A stretch of DNA of 35,510 nucleotides from an uncultured Bacteroidota bacterium (GTDB taxonomy: Bacteria > Bacteroidota > Bacteroidia > Chitinophagales > LD1): the NCBI GenBank assembly GCA_903889265.1, contig CAISWS010000128.1, positions 1 through 35,510 on the forward strand. Reading direction: 5' to 3'. Shown piece by piece: positions 14,160 through 30,651 of this stretch; the first letter of the stretch is position 1; every line of letters starts with the position of its first letter. The translations under genes and the position numbers were made by a program. The notes under the pieces are model-generated. The model searched no databases. It worked only from the letters and a program-made list of their open reading frames with translations, and was not told the DNA's origin.

Positions 14160-16916
14160 CTACAGCTTCCTCTGCACTTCCGTCTCTTCAAATATTTCTA
14201 GGATATCAAGCTCTTTCAAATCCTGGTAGTCTTTAATCTGCACACCGCACTCTAAGCCGCTTACAACTTCTTTTACGTCGTCTTTAAAACGTTTAAGGCC
14301 GCTGATGGTACCGGTATGAATAACTATACCATCGCGCACTACGCGCACTTTGCTGCGGCTAAAGGTTTTGCCTTCGCGCACAAAACAACCGGCAATGGTA
14401 CCCACCTTGCTAACGGTAATAACGTTGCGCACTTCCAGGTTACCAATAATTTTCTCTTCAATCTTAGGCTCCAGTAAACCTTCCATTGCGCTCTTAATTT
14501 CTTCAATAGCGTTGTAGATGATAGAGTATAAGCGTATATCCACTCCTTCTGCATCCGCAATCTTCTTGGCGTTAGCCGAAGGGCGAACGTTGAAGCCTAT
14601 AACGATAGCGTCTGAAGCGGTGGCCAGCAACACATCCGATTCGGATATGGCACCCACGCCTTTGTGTATAATACGCACAGCAATTTCTTCGGTGGAAAGT
14701 TTCAGTAACGAATCGGCCAAAGCTTCTACCGAACCATCCACGTCGCCCTTTAATATCAGGTTCAACTCTTTAAAGTTACCCAATGCCAAACGGCGGCCGA
14801 TTTCATCCAACGTAATGTGTTTCTTGGTACGTATACCGGTTTCGCGTTCAATCTGTGCACGTTTAGTTGCCAGTTCTTTAGCGTCCGATTCATTATCAAA
14901 CACCTTGAATTTTTCGCCTGCCTGTGGCGCACCGCTTAAACCTAAAACCTGCACCGGTCCCGATGGGCCAATGTTTTTTACCTTGCCGCCCTTATAATCA
15001 AACATGGCTTTAATACGGCCGTAGTAAGGCCCGGCAACAATAATATCGCCCAGCTTTAAGGTTCCCGACTGAACAAGCACCGTGGTAGTGTATCCGCGGC
15101 CCTTATCAAGCGTTGCTTCAACTACCGAGCCCATAGCATTCTTGTTCGGGTTGGCTTTCAGTTCCAGTAATTCCGACTGAATCAAAATCTTATCCAGCAG
15201 CGCATCAATATTCAATCCCTTCTTAGCCGAAATTTCCTGGCTTTGGTAAGGGCCGCCCCATTCTTCAACCAATAAATTCATGCTGGCTAACTGCTGGCGG
15301 ATGTTATCGGCGTTAGCACCGTCTTTATCAATCTTGTTAAACGCAAATATCATCGGCACACCCGCACTTTGTGCGTGGTTGATGGCCTCTTTGGTTTGAG
15401 GCATCACCGCATCATCAGCAGCAATTACTATCACTGCTATGTCGGTTACTTTGGCACCCCGTGCACGCATGGCGGTAAACGCTTCGTGGCCCGGTGTATC
15501 AAGGAAGGTAATGTTCTTGCCACTGGCAGTGGTTACTTCGTATGCACCAATGTGCTGGGTAATACCACCCGCTTCTTTACCGGCAACGTTTGTTTTACGG
15601 ATATAATCCAGCAAAGATGTTTTACCGTGGTCAACGTGGCCCATGATAGTAACAATTGGGGCACGCGGTAATAATTCCTCTGTAGTATCTACGTGGTCTT
15701 CAACAAAGGCTGTTTGATCGGCAGCTGAGATAAACTCAATCTGGTATCCGTTTTCAGCCGCAACCAATTCAATAATGGTAGCATCCAAACGCTGGTTAAT
15801 AGATACGATAACGCCCAATTGCATACAGGTTTGAATAACCGCCACCGGCGCAATATTCATTAAGCTGGCCAACTCCGATACTGAAGTAAACTCCGCTACC
15901 TGCAGGTGGTTATTTTCTCTGCCCTCCTGTTCTTCGCTGGCCATTTTTTCCTGAATGGCTTCACGTTTTCCTCTTCTGAACTTCGACCGGTCACTCTTGG
16001 CAGTTTGGGCCTGAATTTTGGCCATCGTTGCCCTTATTTTATCCTCAATCTCCTTTTCGCTGATTTCAGCTGGTTGAGCAGGGGCTTCGGGTTTACGTGG
16101 TAAAACTTCGCGCTTGCGCTGAAAGTTTTCTACTTTCTTATCATAATACTGGTCGCCAGCCAAAGGTGGACGCACCTTCTTTTGTACCAGCTTACGGGTT
16201 CTGTTCTTTTTAGCTGCATCGCCTGCGGCATCTTTCCCCAGCACTTTCGCCTCTTCCTTCTTCTTCGGTTTCTCGTCAAATTTCGAAAGATCTATACGGC
16301 CTACTTCTTTAGGCCCGTCCAGGGTTTGGTATTTGGTGGTAATGCGGTGTTCAGCTTCAGGGTCAACCACCGGCTTAACAACTTCAACCGGTTTTTCTTC
16401 TTTGCCCGGTTCGGCTATAACTTCCTTTTCTTCTTTTACAACCAGTGCAACAACCTCTTCAACCGGTGCTGTTTCAACAACTTCTTCTTCCTTCTTTTTA
16501 GTGGTTTTCTTTGGCTTGTTAAGGTCTACCGTGCCAACAACCTTAGGGCCTTCCAGCTGCACCTTATCGGCGGAAATGGTTTGAACCACTTCTTCCTCTT
16601 TTGGCGCCAGGTTGGATTTAACCATCACCTCTTTTTCTTCTTCCTTCTTCTGGTGCGTGGCTATGTTATTCTCTTGCATCTCCACACTGGCCTTCTTCTC
16701 AGTTTTGTCTATTTTGGTGTTATCGGCCTGTTCCTTAATAGCCTTATCAACACCAAAAGCCTTCTCCAGCACCGAAATCATTTCGGATGTTAGTTTAGAC
16801 GTGGGTTTGTTCTCCAACACAAAACCGCTTTGTTTCAACTTTTCAAGTAAGTGGTCGGTACTTACGTTGTAAGTTGTTGCGGCTTTTGCCAATCGCATGC
16901 TTGGTGCTTCTGCCAT
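14160..16916 (-). CDS. infB: Translation initiation factor IF-2
   Basis: IF-2 is a GTPase that places fMet-tRNA on the 30S subunit and promotes subunit joining. This copy is 918 aa. The N-terminal IF2_N domain begins [20 protein letters not shown] (residues 7-26). A long Lys/Glu-rich linker (about 60-330) repeats valine-acid-lysine segments and is typical of Bacteroidota IF-2. The G1 motif GHVDHGKT is at 426-433, followed by DTPGHEAF and NKIDKDGAN, then domain II and the C-terminal fMet-tRNA-binding domain. It is the third gene of the rimP-nusA-infB operon, 110 bp after nusA, and ends before a strong terminator. Confidence 0.97.
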
Positions 16917-17026
16917 AGTTTGTTTTTAGTATACTAATATTCGGTGACCGGTAGTTGGCTTTTACTAATCACCAAATACCAGTCACTTCTTTTTTTCTGT
17001 GTGTATTGCCGTTTTCATCGCTCAGC

Positions 17027-18286
17027 TCAGGCTTTGCCTTCGTCCTGAAACTCGCTCTGAAGTATCTTCCGTATTTCCTTGATGGTCTCTTCTTCAAGGT
17101 CGGTACGGCGTACAAGCTCATCATCATTCAGGGCTAGTACACTTTTTGCTGTATCGCAACCTATCTTCTTCAACTCATCAATCATCCAGTCGTCAATTTC
17201 ATCTGCAAATTCATCTAAGTCGATATCGTATTCTTCTTCACTGCCTTCCTCGTTCTCGCGGTAAACATCAATTTCAAAACCCACCAAACGGCTGGCCAGC
17301 TTAATGTTTACACCGCGCTTACCAATAGCCAAACTAACCTGGTCTGGTTTCAGATAAACTGAAATCCTTTTGGTTTCCTGGTTGATATCAATAGAGGTGA
17401 TTTTAGCCGGAGCCAAAGCACGTTGTACCATCAGCGAAAGGTTGTTGGTATGGTTAATGATATCAATATTCTCATTCTTCAGTTCGCGCACAATGCCGTG
17501 AATACGTGAGCCTTTTACGCCTACGCAAGCACCTACCGGGTCAATACGGTCATCGAACGACTCAACTACTACTTTTGCCTTTTCTCCCGGTTCGCGTACA
17601 ATGTTCTTAACCACTATTAAACCATCAAAAATTTCCGGTACTTCCTGCTCCAGCAACTTAGCCAGGAACGCGTTGTCGGTTCTTGACAGGATGATGAACG
17701 GGGTTCCGTTTCTTAACTCCACTTTGCGCACAACGGCACGTACCTGTTCTCCTTTTTTGAAGAAATCCGTTTTAATCTGCTCAGATTTAGGTAACAATAA
17801 TTCGTTTCCTTCTTCATCCAGCAACAAAATTTCTTTTTTCCAAACCTGGTAAACTTCGGCTGAAATAATTTCGCCAATCCGGTCTTTATATTTTTTGAAA
17901 ACTTCGTCTTTTTCCAAATCGCCTACTCTTGACGCCAGTGTTTGGCGGGCAGCCAGAATTGCACGACGGCCGAAGCTTTCCAATTCAATTTTTTCGTATG
18001 TTTCTTCACCAATTTCAAAATCTTCTTCAAGTGCTTTAGCCTCGGTAATACCAATCTGCAGAATAGGGTTCTCTACTGCATCATCCGCAACTATTTCGCG
18101 TCTGTGCCAGATTTCAAGGTCACCTTTATCGGTGTTAACGATAATGTCGAAGTTATCGGTCTCGCCGTATTTTTTACGAAGCAGGGTACGGAAAACGTCT
18201 TCCAGCACCTTCATCATCGTAGGACGATCGATGTTCTTCATTTGTTTGAACTCGCTGAACGAGTCAATCAGGTCTAAGCTGTTCAT
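17027..18286 (-). CDS. nusA: Transcription termination/antitermination factor NusA
   Basis: NusA binds RNA polymerase and nascent RNA and stimulates pausing and intrinsic termination. This copy is 419 aa. The N-terminal polymerase-binding domain (residues 1-130, MNSLDLIDSFSEFKQMKNID) is followed by an S1 domain. Two KH domains follow, with the conserved DPVGACVGVKGSRIHGIV, VSLAIGKRGVNIKLASRLVG and EIDVY. The C-terminus ends in a helical HhH-like segment (DDELVRRTDLEEETIKEIR) without the extra E. coli acidic repeats. It is the second gene of the operon. Since NusA promotes intrinsic termination, the leader terminator upstream of rimP could provide feedback. Confidence 0.97.
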   Translation of the reverse strand: MNSLDLIDSFSEFKQMKNIDRPTMMKVLEDVFRTLLRKKYGETDNFDIIVNTDKGDLEIWHRREIVADDAVENPILQIGITEAKALEEDFEIGEETYEKIELESFGRRAILAARQTLASRVGDLEKDEVFKKYKDRIGEIISAEVYQVWKKEILLLDEEGNELLLPKSEQIKTDFFKKGEQVRAVVRKVELRNGTPFIILSRTDNAFLAKLLEQEVPEIFDGLIVVKNIVREPGEKAKVVVESFDDRIDPVGACVGVKGSRIHGIVRELKNENIDIINHTNNLSLMVQRALAPAKITSIDINQETKRISVYLKPDQVSLAIGKRGVNIKLASRLVGFEIDVYRENEEGSEEEYDIDLDEFADEIDDWMIDELKKIGCDTAKSVLALNDDELVRRTDLEEETIKEIRKILQSEFQDEGKA

Positions 18287-18346
18287 GATCTTTAATTTTG
18301 TGTTTTGAAGATTTATGGTTTTAGTTCTGTAATTAAAGCTGTTTTA

Positions 18347-18838
18347 TTAAAATTTAAATTGAAGCACCGCTTTTTTTATGTCGGCATACTTCACAACAAA
18401 TTCCTTCGGCTCTTCTTCTTTAACGCCTTTCTTTTTATCCTTCTTTTTCAATTCCGGTAATATCTCCTGCAATGTTATCTGTTCGTCATCGGCTTTCAGC
18501 AAAGTTGCCTCAATATGTGTGCCGTCGTTTTTATCAATTTCAAATATCCGTCCAATCCTTCTTTTATACTGGCGTGGCACTTTTAACGGGTTACTCATAC
18601 CCGGGCTTGATGACTCGAGTATATAATTATCGGGTACCAAACCGCTGCCGTCCAAATGACTTTCAACCAAACGCGAAATAATGGCACACTCTTCAATAGT
18701 AATACCAGTATCGCTATCGGCAAACACTTCAATTTTGCGGCCCATGGAAATCCTGACATCTACCAGAAAGAGATTTTTTTCTTCCAGCAGCGGTGCCAGC
18801 CATTCAGCAATTTTTTGTTTTACTACTTCCTGCTCCAT
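18347..18838 (-). CDS. rimP: Ribosome maturation factor RimP
   Basis: RimP assists 30S assembly. This copy is 163 aa from the ATG at 18838, giving MEQEVVKQKIAEWLAPLLEE. A frame open to 18889 would add 17 residues that fall in the leader and is rejected. LFLVDVRISMGRKIEVFADS and the motif SSPGMSNPL (usual SSPGLDRPL) identify the family. The C-terminal SH3-like domain contains a Lys-rich insert (KKKDKKKGVKEEEP). It is the first gene of the conserved rimP-nusA-infB operon, 60 bp ahead of nusA. Confidence 0.95.
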   Translation of the reverse strand: MEQEVVKQKIAEWLAPLLEEKNLFLVDVRISMGRKIEVFADSDTGITIEECAIISRLVESHLDGSGLVPDNYILESSSPGMSNPLKVPRQYKRRIGRIFEIDKNDGTHIEATLLKADDEQITLQEILPELKKKDKKKGVKEEEPKEFVVKYADIKKAVLQFKF

Positions 18839-18895
18839 TTTTCCTCTTCCTTTTGCCCCGTTTTGCCATAAAAACCACAAAAACGGCACCTGTAG

Positions 18896-26457: not shown

Positions 26458-27030
26458 TTGAAAATCGGCCTTTTTTTCGGTTCATTTAACCCGGTACATA
26501 ACGGGCACCTCATTATAGCCAGCTACATCAGTCAAACCACTGATTTGGATAAGGTATGGCTGGTAGTATCGCCACAAAACCCTTTAAAACCCAAAGAAAC
26601 CCTGCTGCGCGACCATGACCGCCTGCACCTGATTAACATGGCTATTGAAGAGAGTAAGCACCTGAAAGCATCGGGCATAGAATTTAAGCTGCCGAAGCCT
26701 TCTTACACTATTGATACCCTGGTTTACCTGCACGAAAAATACCCGCAACACCAGTTTTCGCTCATTATGGGTAGCGATAACCTGGTAACCCTGCACAAAT
26801 GGAAAAATTTTGAAAAGCTGCTTACTTATCCCATTTATGTATACAAACGCCGGGGGTTTGATGAAAACCCTTACCCTGAGCGTAACAACATTCAGTTGCT
26901 GGATTTTCCCTTCCTCGACATTTCTGCCACTTTTATCCGCGAAAGCATCCGTAGTGGTATTTCTATGCAGTACTTTTTACCGGATCTTGTTTGGAAGTAT
27001 ATTGATGAGTCGGGCTGGTACAAAAAGTAG
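26458..27030 (+). CDS. nadD: Nicotinate-nucleotide adenylyltransferase
   Basis: NadD converts nicotinate mononucleotide and ATP to deamido-NAD in NAD biosynthesis. The protein is 190 aa, the usual size. The nucleotidyltransferase opening KIGLFFGSFNPVHNGHL contains the GSFNP and HxGH motifs, and DISATFIRESIRSG near the C-terminus is the conserved ISxTxIR motif. The start must be TTG at 26458, because the codon sits exactly where the family begins and the only nearby upstream ATG (26409) runs into a stop. No obvious operon partner follows; the next gene starts 133 bp later. Confidence 0.95.
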   Translation: MKIGLFFGSFNPVHNGHLIIASYISQTTDLDKVWLVVSPQNPLKPKETLLRDHDRLHLINMAIEESKHLKASGIEFKLPKPSYTIDTLVYLHEKYPQHQFSLIMGSDNLVTLHKWKNFEKLLTYPIYVYKRRGFDENPYPERNNIQLLDFPFLDISATFIRESIRSGISMQYFLPDLVWKYIDESGWYKK

Positions 27031-27163: not shown

Positions 27164-28696
27164 TTGAAAAATTTTTTATTCCCCCTTTTTTTCTGTCTTT
27201 GCTTTGCGATCAGCAGTTTTGCTACCGGTTTTGACATAAAAACCAGCTCAATTATTGACCAACCGGCCATTGAAGTGCTGGGCGATTTTAATAACAATTG
27301 GTACGTTATCGGTTTTGAAAAACCCAATTACCCCGAAAAACCAGCCCGGTTCTATATCCTTAAATATGCGGCCGGCTTTCCTACTGCAAAAAGCTCACCT
27401 GTTTATCCTCCTTTTGGCGAGAAAACCGATTATCTGAAAGCTGCCATTGTAAATGGCAAGGTCTCCATTTTTTATGCCCGCTGCGAAAGGGTAGTTGAAA
27501 GGCCCGACATGGTTGATAGCCGCGATGGCTATAAGCAGATACCCAAAATTTTGCGCCAGGATTACGACCCGGTTACTTTATTACCTGCGGGCGAACCCGT
27601 TACTGTATTTGACGAAAACAAAGAGCATTTTGCAGCCAGCGGTATTGAAATTGCCCAAAGCGACGATAAAAGCAAAACGGCTATTCTTATAAAACACTAC
27701 TTCCGCCAGCAAAAATTTAAGGTTATTCTGGTAGATAACAGCAAGGGCGTGTTATTTGAAAAAAGTTATGAAATAAAAGCAGAGAAAGACCTTATCAACT
27801 TTAAGCACCTCGTAGTTGGCAATAATGGCCAAATGCTGTTGGAAGCCAAAACACAGGAAGACCCCCTGCACCTGGAACCCAAAGGCAACAAACCCCTGAA
27901 GTATTATTTTTTCTCAATAAACAGCAAAGACGATGACCCGGCTATGCTAAGCCTGGCTGCAACTGTTGGGGGTAATCAAGCCTCCGGAGAGCCTGCGATT
28001 GCTTTGCTCAATAATGAAGAGTTACTAATCAGTTACGACCATTATGTGATCGACCACAGCCCGGTGCTTAAAGGTATATCTGTAAGCAAGTACACGACCG
28101 ATTTTACATTAACCTCTACTTATGATATAGTTCCTGATCAAAAGTTGCTGGATAAAGCCGCTTCGTATCAAAAAACCCGGGAGAACGGGCTTGAATACCT
28201 GGAAACACGGCAAATACTGCCCTTGGAGGTCGGAAATTTTATGCTGATAGCCGAATACCGGCGCAGTACTGATAACAAAGACAAAGTTACAAGTGCAGTA
28301 ACCACGGTTTTGGACCGGCACTATCTGGCCGCCTTCCGTTTTGATGAGCAGTTAAACTTAAAGGGTTCAGATTTTATAGATAAAAAGCAAACCACCCAAA
28401 AGTTGGGCTACGCCTTTTCTTTTCAGGCTTACCATAAAGGCGGTGATGTTTACTTATTACACAACGAAGATTGCGAAAGCGATGATGAGCATGGGTTATA
28501 CTTGTTGAATACGCTATTGCCTGCTATCGGGGGTGGGCAAACTACTCAAAAGATAGTTCACACCTCAGAAGACTTTTTTGTTAGCCTTGCCCATATTTAC
28601 ACGGCTGGCAACCGGATTTTATTTACCGAGGAAAAGGTAGTGGATTTTTCGGCTGAGGGCAGTGAGCTAAAGTTGTTGGAAGTAAAACTTAAATAG
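27164..28696 (+). CDS. Secreted protein of unknown function
   Basis: This 510-aa protein starts with TTG at 27164. The start is supported by the signal peptide it gives (MKNFLFPLFFCLCFAISSFA) and by the absence of an in-frame ATG nearby. The mature part consists of regularly spaced beta-strand pairs (NNWYVIGFEK, GKVSIFYARCE, NGQMLLEAK, GNFMLIAEYRR), suggesting a beta-propeller-like repeat fold. No catalytic motif or T9SS sorting domain is visible. A TACTTTTG -7 box lies at 27134-27141. It is probably periplasmic or outer-membrane associated. I do not recognise the family. Confidence 0.7.
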   Translation: MKNFLFPLFFCLCFAISSFATGFDIKTSSIIDQPAIEVLGDFNNNWYVIGFEKPNYPEKPARFYILKYAAGFPTAKSSPVYPPFGEKTDYLKAAIVNGKVSIFYARCERVVERPDMVDSRDGYKQIPKILRQDYDPVTLLPAGEPVTVFDENKEHFAASGIEIAQSDDKSKTAILIKHYFRQQKFKVILVDNSKGVLFEKSYEIKAEKDLINFKHLVVGNNGQMLLEAKTQEDPLHLEPKGNKPLKYYFFSINSKDDDPAMLSLAATVGGNQASGEPAIALLNNEELLISYDHYVIDHSPVLKGISVSKYTTDFTLTSTYDIVPDQKLLDKAASYQKTRENGLEYLETRQILPLEVGNFMLIAEYRRSTDNKDKVTSAVTTVLDRHYLAAFRFDEQLNLKGSDFIDKKQTTQKLGYAFSFQAYHKGGDVYLLHNEDCESDDEHGLYLLNTLLPAIGGGQTTQKIVHTSEDFFVSLAHIYTAGNRILFTEEKVVDFSAEGSELKLLEVKLK

Positions 28697-29110
28697 TAGG
28701 CTCTTAAACTTTCCGCTTATCCACAAAAACGCCTGTTGGTAACGCCAAAAAGCAGTGGGTAACTGATTATGAAATAAGTTTGGAAATGCGGGTTAAAAAA
28801 CTCCCGGTTTTCCGTAAATAGTTGTGTTCATGTTATTCACGTAATCCACACTTACGTCAACATAAAGTTACCAAAAAGTTATGCTGATACGGCTGTCAAC
28901 AGGGGTTTCCACAGCCTGTGCATAAGGTATATAATTACATGTTTTTCAAGTAGTTAAATGGCGCTTTATATGTGGATTACGGTGAACAACTGTATATAAT
29001 TGTGAACGCAAAGTTTTAGGGCTCCAACTTAGGCTATAAATTCACACAGCTAGTAATAACTGTTCTATTGATTAATTAAACTACTTATTATAATACAAGG
29101 TGTGGATTGA
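28697..29110. other. Candidate chromosomal replication origin (oriC), DnaA-box cluster
   Basis: This gene-free stretch carries one perfect DnaA box TTATCCACA (28717-28725) and three one-mismatch boxes: TAATCCACA (28842-28850), TTATGCACA on minus (28925-28917) and TAATCCACA on minus (28979-28971). Two-mismatch boxes lie at 28833-28841, 28905-28913 and, on minus, 29109-29101. GTAATCCACA and TGTGGATTAC form a perfect 10-bp inverted pair. An AT-rich tract at 29065-29096 could be the unwinding element. dnaA is not adjacent, which is not unusual in Bacteroidota. This is inference from motif density. Confidence 0.55.
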
Positions 29111-29191
29111 TTGAAATTTGTTGGTTGTGGCCACTTAATTTTTTCTCTGCCGTATACCCGAAAAGCGAAACCCCCGTTTGAATATGAGATT

Positions 29192-29974
29192 ATGACCCTT
29201 TTAAAAACAAGTTTACTATTTCTGCTTCTGGCGCTTAGCTCGGGATTTACGCCCGAAAAGAGCACTTTTGAGGAAATACAAAAGGGTTTTCCGAGGGTAA
29301 AGGATGTTTATGAACGAAAGGAGGAGCTGATAAACATGAAAATGCGCTCCCTTGAGATACCCGAAGAAACTTTTGGGAACATGTTAATCAGGGTTTTTAA
29401 AATGGAGTGCATATTGGAAGTATGGGTACAAAAGCCTGATGGTAAGTACATTAAGTTTAAGGAGTTTAATATTTATGCACTTTCGGGCGTTTTAGGGCCT
29501 AAAAGGCAGGAAGGTGATAAACAGGTGCCTGAGGGCTATTATTACATCAAGGATTTTAACCCGCAAAGCAATTATTACCTGTCTTTAGGCATAAACTACC
29601 CTAACGAATCAGACATGAAATTAAGCACTGCCGAAAGGAAGGGCAGGGATATATACATACATGGGGCCAAATGCAGTGCGGGATGCCTGGCTATGAGTAA
29701 TTACTACATTGAGGATATTTACATGTGCGCTGTTAAAGCACACAGCAACGGGCAACAACAAATACCGGTTGAGATTTTTCCATTTAAAATGACGGATAAA
29801 AACATGATGTATTACAATCACTGGGGTGCGTATCAACGTCAGGTTATGTTTTGGAATAATCTGCGCAAGGGCTATGCCTTTTTTGAAAAATACCACCGGG
29901 TTCCTGATGTTAGCGTTGCTGATAATGGAGAATATTTGTTCAGCGATCCGGCTAGGGTACAAGCTTCTAAATAG
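29192..29974 (+). CDS. L,D-transpeptidase-family protein (YkuD-like)
   Basis: This 260-aa exported protein starts at the ATG at 29192, which places a signal peptide first (MTLLKTSLLFLLLALSSGF). A frame open from TTG at 29111 would put 27 charged residues before it and is rejected. The catalytic motif of the YkuD fold is present as HGAKCSAGCL: His157, Ser162, Gly164, Cys165, with an extra Cys161. The preceding IYALSGVLGPKRQEGDKQVP then EGYYYI corresponds to the usual G-P-TP-G-Y region. Such enzymes make 3-3 peptidoglycan cross-links or attach proteins to peptidoglycan; this distal subfamily is less well studied. The following gene is psd, 41 bp downstream. Confidence 0.85.
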   Translation: MTLLKTSLLFLLLALSSGFTPEKSTFEEIQKGFPRVKDVYERKEELINMKMRSLEIPEETFGNMLIRVFKMECILEVWVQKPDGKYIKFKEFNIYALSGVLGPKRQEGDKQVPEGYYYIKDFNPQSNYYLSLGINYPNESDMKLSTAERKGRDIYIHGAKCSAGCLAMSNYYIEDIYMCAVKAHSNGQQQIPVEIFPFKMTDKNMMYYNHWGAYQRQVMFWNNLRKGYAFFEKYHRVPDVSVADNGEYLFSDPARVQASK

Positions 29975-30015: not shown

Positions 30016-30651
30016 ATGAAATTTTTACGTTTACTCATCTGCACTGCAGTTATACTAACCGTTTTTTTATTTACCTATTACCAGGTTTGGTTTCTTCGTC
30101 AGCCTGCACGGAATATACCGGGTAACGAACATGTTTTTGTTAGCCCCGCCAATGGTAAAATAGTTTCCATTCACAAATGGAATAGTGCAAGTTTGGTAGT
30201 TACCAAGGAAGAATTTGGCGCTATCAACGTGTGGACAAAAGATGTGGATACTGCGGGTACTATTATTTCTATCCAAATGGATGTTACCAATGTACATTTT
30301 CAAAGGGCACCGGTGGCAGGTAAGGTGCTTGCCGAAACTTATACCCACGGCAGTTTTCATAATGCGGTGCAAATGAGTAATGATTATGGTATCCGGTTCG
30401 AAAATGAGCATAATGAAATTTTAATGCAAACGCCATCAGGTAAAAAGTATAAGGTTATTCAGATAGCCGGTTTTTTAGCGCGCAGGATTGTGGATATGAC
30501 GGTGCCTAACCAGGTAGTAAAACAAGGAGATGTAATAGGATTAATTAAACTGGGCAGCCAGGTAACGGTTTTATTACCACATGATGTAGAAGTGTTGGTT
30601 AAACAAGGTGATGTAACTGTGGATGGAGAAACTATTTTAGGAAAAGAATAG
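30016..30651 (+). CDS. psd: Phosphatidylserine decarboxylase proenzyme, short type
   Basis: This 211-aa enzyme makes phosphatidylethanolamine from phosphatidylserine at the membrane. An N-terminal hydrophobic segment (residues 6-27) is followed by VSPANGKIVSI, NVHFQRAPVAGKV and the self-cleavage site KLGSQVTVLLP, where the chain breaks between Gly180 and Ser181 to give the pyruvoyl group. The size matches the short PSD-A class. A TTTG (29978-29981) and TAGGTTTG (30004-30011) pair with 22-nt spacing ends only 4 nt before the ATG. Transcripts from it would be leaderless or nearly so. Otherwise it may be cotranscribed with the L,D-transpeptidase gene. Confidence 0.93.
   Translation: MKFLRLLICTAVILTVFLFTYYQVWFLRQPARNIPGNEHVFVSPANGKIVSIHKWNSASLVVTKEEFGAINVWTKDVDTAGTIISIQMDVTNVHFQRAPVAGKVLAETYTHGSFHNAVQMSNDYGIRFENEHNEILMQTPSGKKYKVIQIAGFLARRIVDMTVPNQVVKQGDVIGLIKLGSQVTVLLPHDVEVLVKQGDVTVDGETILGKE

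Follow-up and report, generated by a model that had tools for sequence, protein, structure and literature searches.

Where on the chromosome of an uncultured Bacteroidota bacterium (order Chitinophagales) does replication begin, and could a gene-free stretch on a contig that does not carry dnaA be the place? Chromosomal origins (oriCs) of Bacteroidetes usually lie far from dnaA (PMC4755523), and mapping those of uncultured Bacteroidota is made difficult by this distance and by the fragmentation of the genomes. The home genome studied here comprises 5.1 Mb in 527 contigs, and the window, meaning the whole stretch of DNA that was analysed, is one entire contig (C128) of 35,510 nucleotides. A sequence-only reading of the window had proposed an origin away from dnaA at 28697-29110. 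Comparison with related genomes, those named here being MAGs labelled Bacteroidetes or Chitinophagales, bears this proposal out, and we consider 28697-29191 to be very probably a chromosomal oriC away from dnaA (a probability of roughly 0.93). The support comes from the elements of the locus, namely a DnaA-box cluster and an unwinding module, from their conservation and order, from the near-uniqueness of the site in each genome, from box arrays at homologous sites, from a GC-skew flip at the homologous site of one complete chromosome, and from the location of dnaA on another contig.

The interval had been described as about 400 bp of gene-free DNA. It is indeed gene-free, but its length is nearer 495 bp (28697-29191) than 414, because the start of the downstream L,D-transpeptidase gene is placed at the ATG at 29192, the start used by relatives and most probably the correct one, rather than at the TTG at 29111 (Table 1). 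When the interval 28697-29191 was searched against Rfam, no RNA family was found within it, and a tRNA-Thr downstream was the only match. On the left-hand side, nadD lies two genes from the putative origin in the window. The rimP-nusA-infB operon further left (14160-18856) is transcribed leftward, as had been claimed; its orientation is compatible with an origin at this locus and taken alone is a weak argument for one.

Table 1. Features of the putative oriC and its flanking genes, in window coordinates
Feature	Position	Strand	Remarks
Candidate oriC, gene-free interval	28697..29191	.	Between the ORF at 27164-28696 and the L,D-transpeptidase gene; placed from the ORF list, the relatives' start and conserved DNA
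Perfect DnaA box TTATCCACA	28717..28725	+	Several relatives have TTACCCACA, TTTTCCACA or TTATACACA at this position
One-mismatch DnaA boxes	28842, 28917, 28971	+, -, -	
Two-mismatch DnaA boxes	28734, 28754, 28833, 28905, 28991, 29101		
GTAATCCACA with one-mismatch box TAATCCACA, left arm of inverted pair	28841..28850	+	Kept in most of the genus
TGTGGATTAC with box TAATCCACA, right arm of inverted pair	28971..28980	-	Minus-strand TAATCCACA also at the g3 site
32-bp module TGTCAACAGGGGTTTCCACAGCCTGTGCATAA	28894..28925	+	Inverted boxes GTTTCCACA (+) and TTATGCACA (-), with TGTCAACA ahead of them
Unwinding module (degenerate box, spacer, DnaA-trios, AT-rich unwinding element)	29026..29109	+	Match to model R1, E 1.1e-16
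Trio-proximal DnaA box AAATTCACA	29038..29046	+	Degenerate, three mismatches
DnaA-trios 3'-GAT CAT TAT-5'	29050..29058	-	After 3-bp spacer CAG; trio definition from PMC8287927
AT-rich DNA unwinding element	29060..29099	.	80% A+T; ends in conserved TAATACA(A/G)G
YkuD/YafK-like L,D-transpeptidase-fold gene	29192..29974	+	Flanking marker in genera g1 and g4; outside the origin proper
psd (phosphatidylserine decarboxylase), family-specific second copy	30016..30651	+	Steadiest neighbour of the origin within the family
nadD	26458..27030	+	Left-hand neighbour; also adjoins the homologous site in two other families

Within 28697-29191 we counted one DnaA box that is perfect, three that carry a single mismatch and six that carry two; the first two numbers agree with the sequence-only reading, which had listed only three boxes of the last class. 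The exact inverted pair that it had reported, GTAATCCACA/TGTGGATTAC, is present. The best 270 bp of the cluster score 8.7, compared with 3.1 on average and 6.3 at most among 1000 windows simulated under a first-order Markov model, and boxes with at most one mismatch number 4 where 0.23 are expected (P ~1e-4 at the window's own box rate). Genome-wide, perfect boxes are found 30 times and the reversed pattern 29 times, which is chance level, so the signal lies in the clustering of boxes and not in their count. This same chance level is what can be said for the idea that the cluster is an accident, an accumulation of DnaA-box-like words in AT-rich DNA. We find that idea scarcely credible, since the observed score was reached in 0/1000 simulations and the non-coding DNA is strongly conserved across genera (see below); the latter result refutes it. 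A DnaA-box cluster beyond chance in non-coding DNA is what one looks for in an oriC. No comparable cluster had been noticed elsewhere in the window. A second group of boxes exists at 30230/30243/30489, but it is located within the psd coding sequence. Its box-like words, TTGTCCACA and GTATCCACA (30230-30497), are found at the same positions in the psd of most relatives, and for the first two words (30230 and 30243) this shared position points to coding conservation. The group was consequently rejected as a rival cluster.

Homologous loci in the genus and family show which parts of the interval have been kept. In most genomes of genus g1, the cluster sits upstream of the L,D-transpeptidase-psd pair. 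Genus g3, in which this L,D-transpeptidase was not found, has the cluster in rearranged form between psd and gcvH. The unwinding module adjoins psd in genus g2 and lies upstream of the L,D-transpeptidase in two genomes of genus g4. The neighbourhood that had been suggested as a check on the origin is conserved in part: the genus keeps both L,D-transpeptidase and psd next to the cluster, other genera of the family keep psd, and conservation of the left-hand "secreted protein" was not seen beyond the nearest relatives. Alignment of the non-coding regions from g1 and the other genera of the family revealed two conserved blocks, one at 28894-28925 with the pattern TGTCAACA......T.TCCACAGC.TGTG.ATAA and one at 29026-29109 that reads box, CAG, CTA(R)TAATAA, AT-rich tract, TAATACA(R)G. 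The first of these, the 32-bp module, occurs free of mismatches at the candidate oriC locus in nine genomes of the genus, with no such match anywhere else within the genus, and it recurs with one and two mismatches at the psd-linked site of genus g3. The core pattern of the second block is present in 42 of the 243 loci examined, and those that were placed are copies of the same site.

With the cluster directly upstream of L,D-transpeptidase and psd, and with two promoter-like matches overlapping it, one could also read the locus as a DnaA-regulated promoter region of one of these genes. We regard this as highly improbable: the promoter-like matches are at the level of shuffled sequence (2 found, 2.2 expected), and the cluster or its core persists in the absence of the L,D-transpeptidase (g3 and g2) and at sites beside nadA or ctaA.

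The second conserved block carries the features expected of the place where an origin opens. The AT-rich tract noted earlier at 29065-29096 was confirmed, with an A+T content of 84% that is equalled or exceeded by 0.3% of window positions, and the full element (29060-29099) adjoins boxes in a conserved position, as would be looked for in an oriC. In the basal unwinding system (BUS), DnaA-trios with GAT proximal to a DnaA box are recognised as three or more NAN trios no further than 16 bp from the box (PMC8287927). The window has three trios, separated from a degenerate box by a 3-bp spacer. The stricter rule of the BUS search program, under which the box next to the trios has at most two mismatches (PMC8287927), passes over the window because its proximal box, AAATTCACA, has three, but accepts g3 and other families at the corresponding position; the equivalent of this box reads TTATACACG in g3, and some other families have a perfect TTATCCACA there, sometimes in tandem. 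Similar to the BUS of B. subtilis (PMC8287927, PMC6669920), the module consists of a DnaA box, a short spacer, trios with a box-proximal GAT and then AT-rich DNA. It differs from that system in the degeneracy of its proximal box, in having three trios only, and in lacking the tandem second box of some other families.

From the second block we constructed a profile of the unwinding module, R1, using sequence only and this family alone. The match at 29026-29109 is the only one in the home genome, and the profile finds strong sites in g1 and g3, one to a genome, and weaker ones in g2 and g4. When 299 genomes of the order were searched, mostly a single best site per genome was obtained beyond the family. 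In a search of 296 genomes from the class, an E value of 0.001 was reached outside the order by only four. At 14 R1 sites read outside the family, the 1.2 kb around the match contain 103 boxes with at most one mismatch (3-18 per site, with 18 in one genome) versus 22 in the remaining 1.9 kb, a roughly 7-fold enrichment over the flanks in which the proximal box is inside the model and all other boxes are outside it, and in which the weakest listed matches may be due to chance. The neighbours at R1 sites in other families include nadD, nadA and ctaA. Among the relatives, exceptions to one site per genome are G005, in which the profile search returned no match, and G002, whose match is weak and located on a contig (C49:185416) other than that of L,D-transpeptidase/psd. 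In G029, a weak match (C4:143588) lies 27 kb from the L,D-transpeptidase. The position of the matches in G002 and G029 suggests that either the origin or its neighbours have moved.

Two groups of perfect DnaA boxes were seen in the course of these comparisons. In G239, from another family, three such boxes fall within ~170 bp (locus L158, 273-438), ~1.2 kb from a module-like match; the weak R1 match (C2:74501) is nearby, and this is a likely origin. In G304, four perfect boxes fall within 0.6 kb (C1:892424-893038), ~10 kb from the module match at 882353; this is possibly a second box locus.

GC skew had been proposed as a further check, with mixed results within the family. The cumulative skew of the window bottoms out at 28178, at a distance of 0.7 kb from the cluster, and minima within 2.5 kb of the site are found in the window and in G015, G017 and G028, but in 7 of 11 family contigs, which come from fragmented relatives and are noisy, the whole-contig minimum is 16-76 kb away. 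The contig of G003 shows no V in its cumulative skew. In 11 of 11 contigs, skew over the 20 kb on the left of the site is below that over the 20 kb on the right, and the combined P of this rise over nine contigs, 7e-4, is supportive only, because related contigs are treated as independent and gene orientation is uncorrected. The one complete chromosome sampled for skew, that of G131 from another family (twenty 20-kb segments), has a single R1 match at 949526. Skew is -0.033 at 920-940 kb and +0.033 at 955-975 kb, with the match in between. Positive skew extends from 0.955 to 2.6 Mb, and from 2.9 Mb onwards round to 0.94 Mb the skew is negative. The sign change at 940-955 kb is the sole minimum of the sampled profile, the maximum lies near the antipode, and the homologous site coincides with this minimum.

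The dnaA gene of G131 is at 1.81 Mb, 0.86 Mb from the R1 match. The home genome carries its dnaA gene on contig C134, where there is no box cluster, and in G020, G007, G014 and G003 it is ~100 kb or more from the site, as measured by the distance to contig ends. The locus is thereby far from dnaA, as in a Bacteroidetes-type origin. Loci at which DnaA is titrated or reactivated, such as datA and DARS in E. coli, are likewise intergenic box clusters away from dnaA, and both this and the weakness of several boxes in the window speak for a locus of this kind. We nevertheless judge such a function to be very unlikely here. Neither DnaA-trios nor an AT-rich unwinding element would need to be kept at a titration or reactivation locus, and both belong to the best-conserved parts of this DNA; in G131, moreover, the homologous site falls on the skew minimum of the chromosome.

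Taking the locus to be an oriC, we infer from its layout that DnaA would bind and melt the DNA here, that helicase would be loaded and that firing would be bidirectional. DnaA would bind the scattered boxes at 28717, 28842, 28905/28917 (an inverted pair) and 28971, and an ATP-DnaA oligomer would be guided to the DnaA-trios of one strand (29050-29058) by way of the degenerate proximal box (29038-29046). Engagement of the trios would open the adjoining AT-rich element (29060-29099), at which the helicase would be loaded, and two forks would then leave, one leftward and co-directional with infB-nusA-rimP and the other rightward through L,D-transpeptidase and psd. The points against an oriC are the presence of one perfect box only, the three mismatches of the proximal box, the skew offsets, and the exceptions in G029, G002 and G005. 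As a tentative and rather doubtful extension, the origin of this family may have come to rely on weak one-mismatch boxes and on a trio-proximal box that is degenerate. The conserved 32-bp inverted module (TGTCAACA..TCCACAG..TGTG.ATAA) might then take over DnaA loading or bind a further origin protein, which, if true, would amount to a divergent start of the basal unwinding system.

The putative oriC resembles Bacteroidetes oriCs distant from dnaA, for example that of Prevotella intermedia OMA14 (PMC4755523; DoriC), in having several boxes within a short interval, in its distance from dnaA and, in the window, G015, G017, G028 and G131, in the turn of GC skew at the site. In contrast to those origins, to which it is likened by general features, this family has mostly one-mismatch boxes and has psd, L,D-transpeptidase and nadD as neighbours. 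Since origins of Bacteroidetes as a rule lie far from dnaA (PMC4755523), this kind of origin is already known; what is new here is the mapped putative origin, its footprint and a search profile at the level of the order. The profile of the unwinding module finds candidate origins in many Chitinophagales genomes. Located origins would permit peak-to-trough growth estimates, origin-based plasmids, and the study of origin neighbourhoods that move around a constant unwinding core.

Some observations concern the flanking genes. Besides the origin-linked copy, a distant psd is present elsewhere in most family genomes, and other families of the order sporadically carry copies resembling the origin-linked psd. 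Most members of the order carry a different psd, and the gene was dropped as a route to origins across the order. The L,D-transpeptidase (29192-29974) is a YafK/DpaA-like protein with a score below the NCBIfam cut-off. Its homologues outside Bacteroidota include proteins of Brachyspira with 46-48% identity, which suggests lateral transfer.
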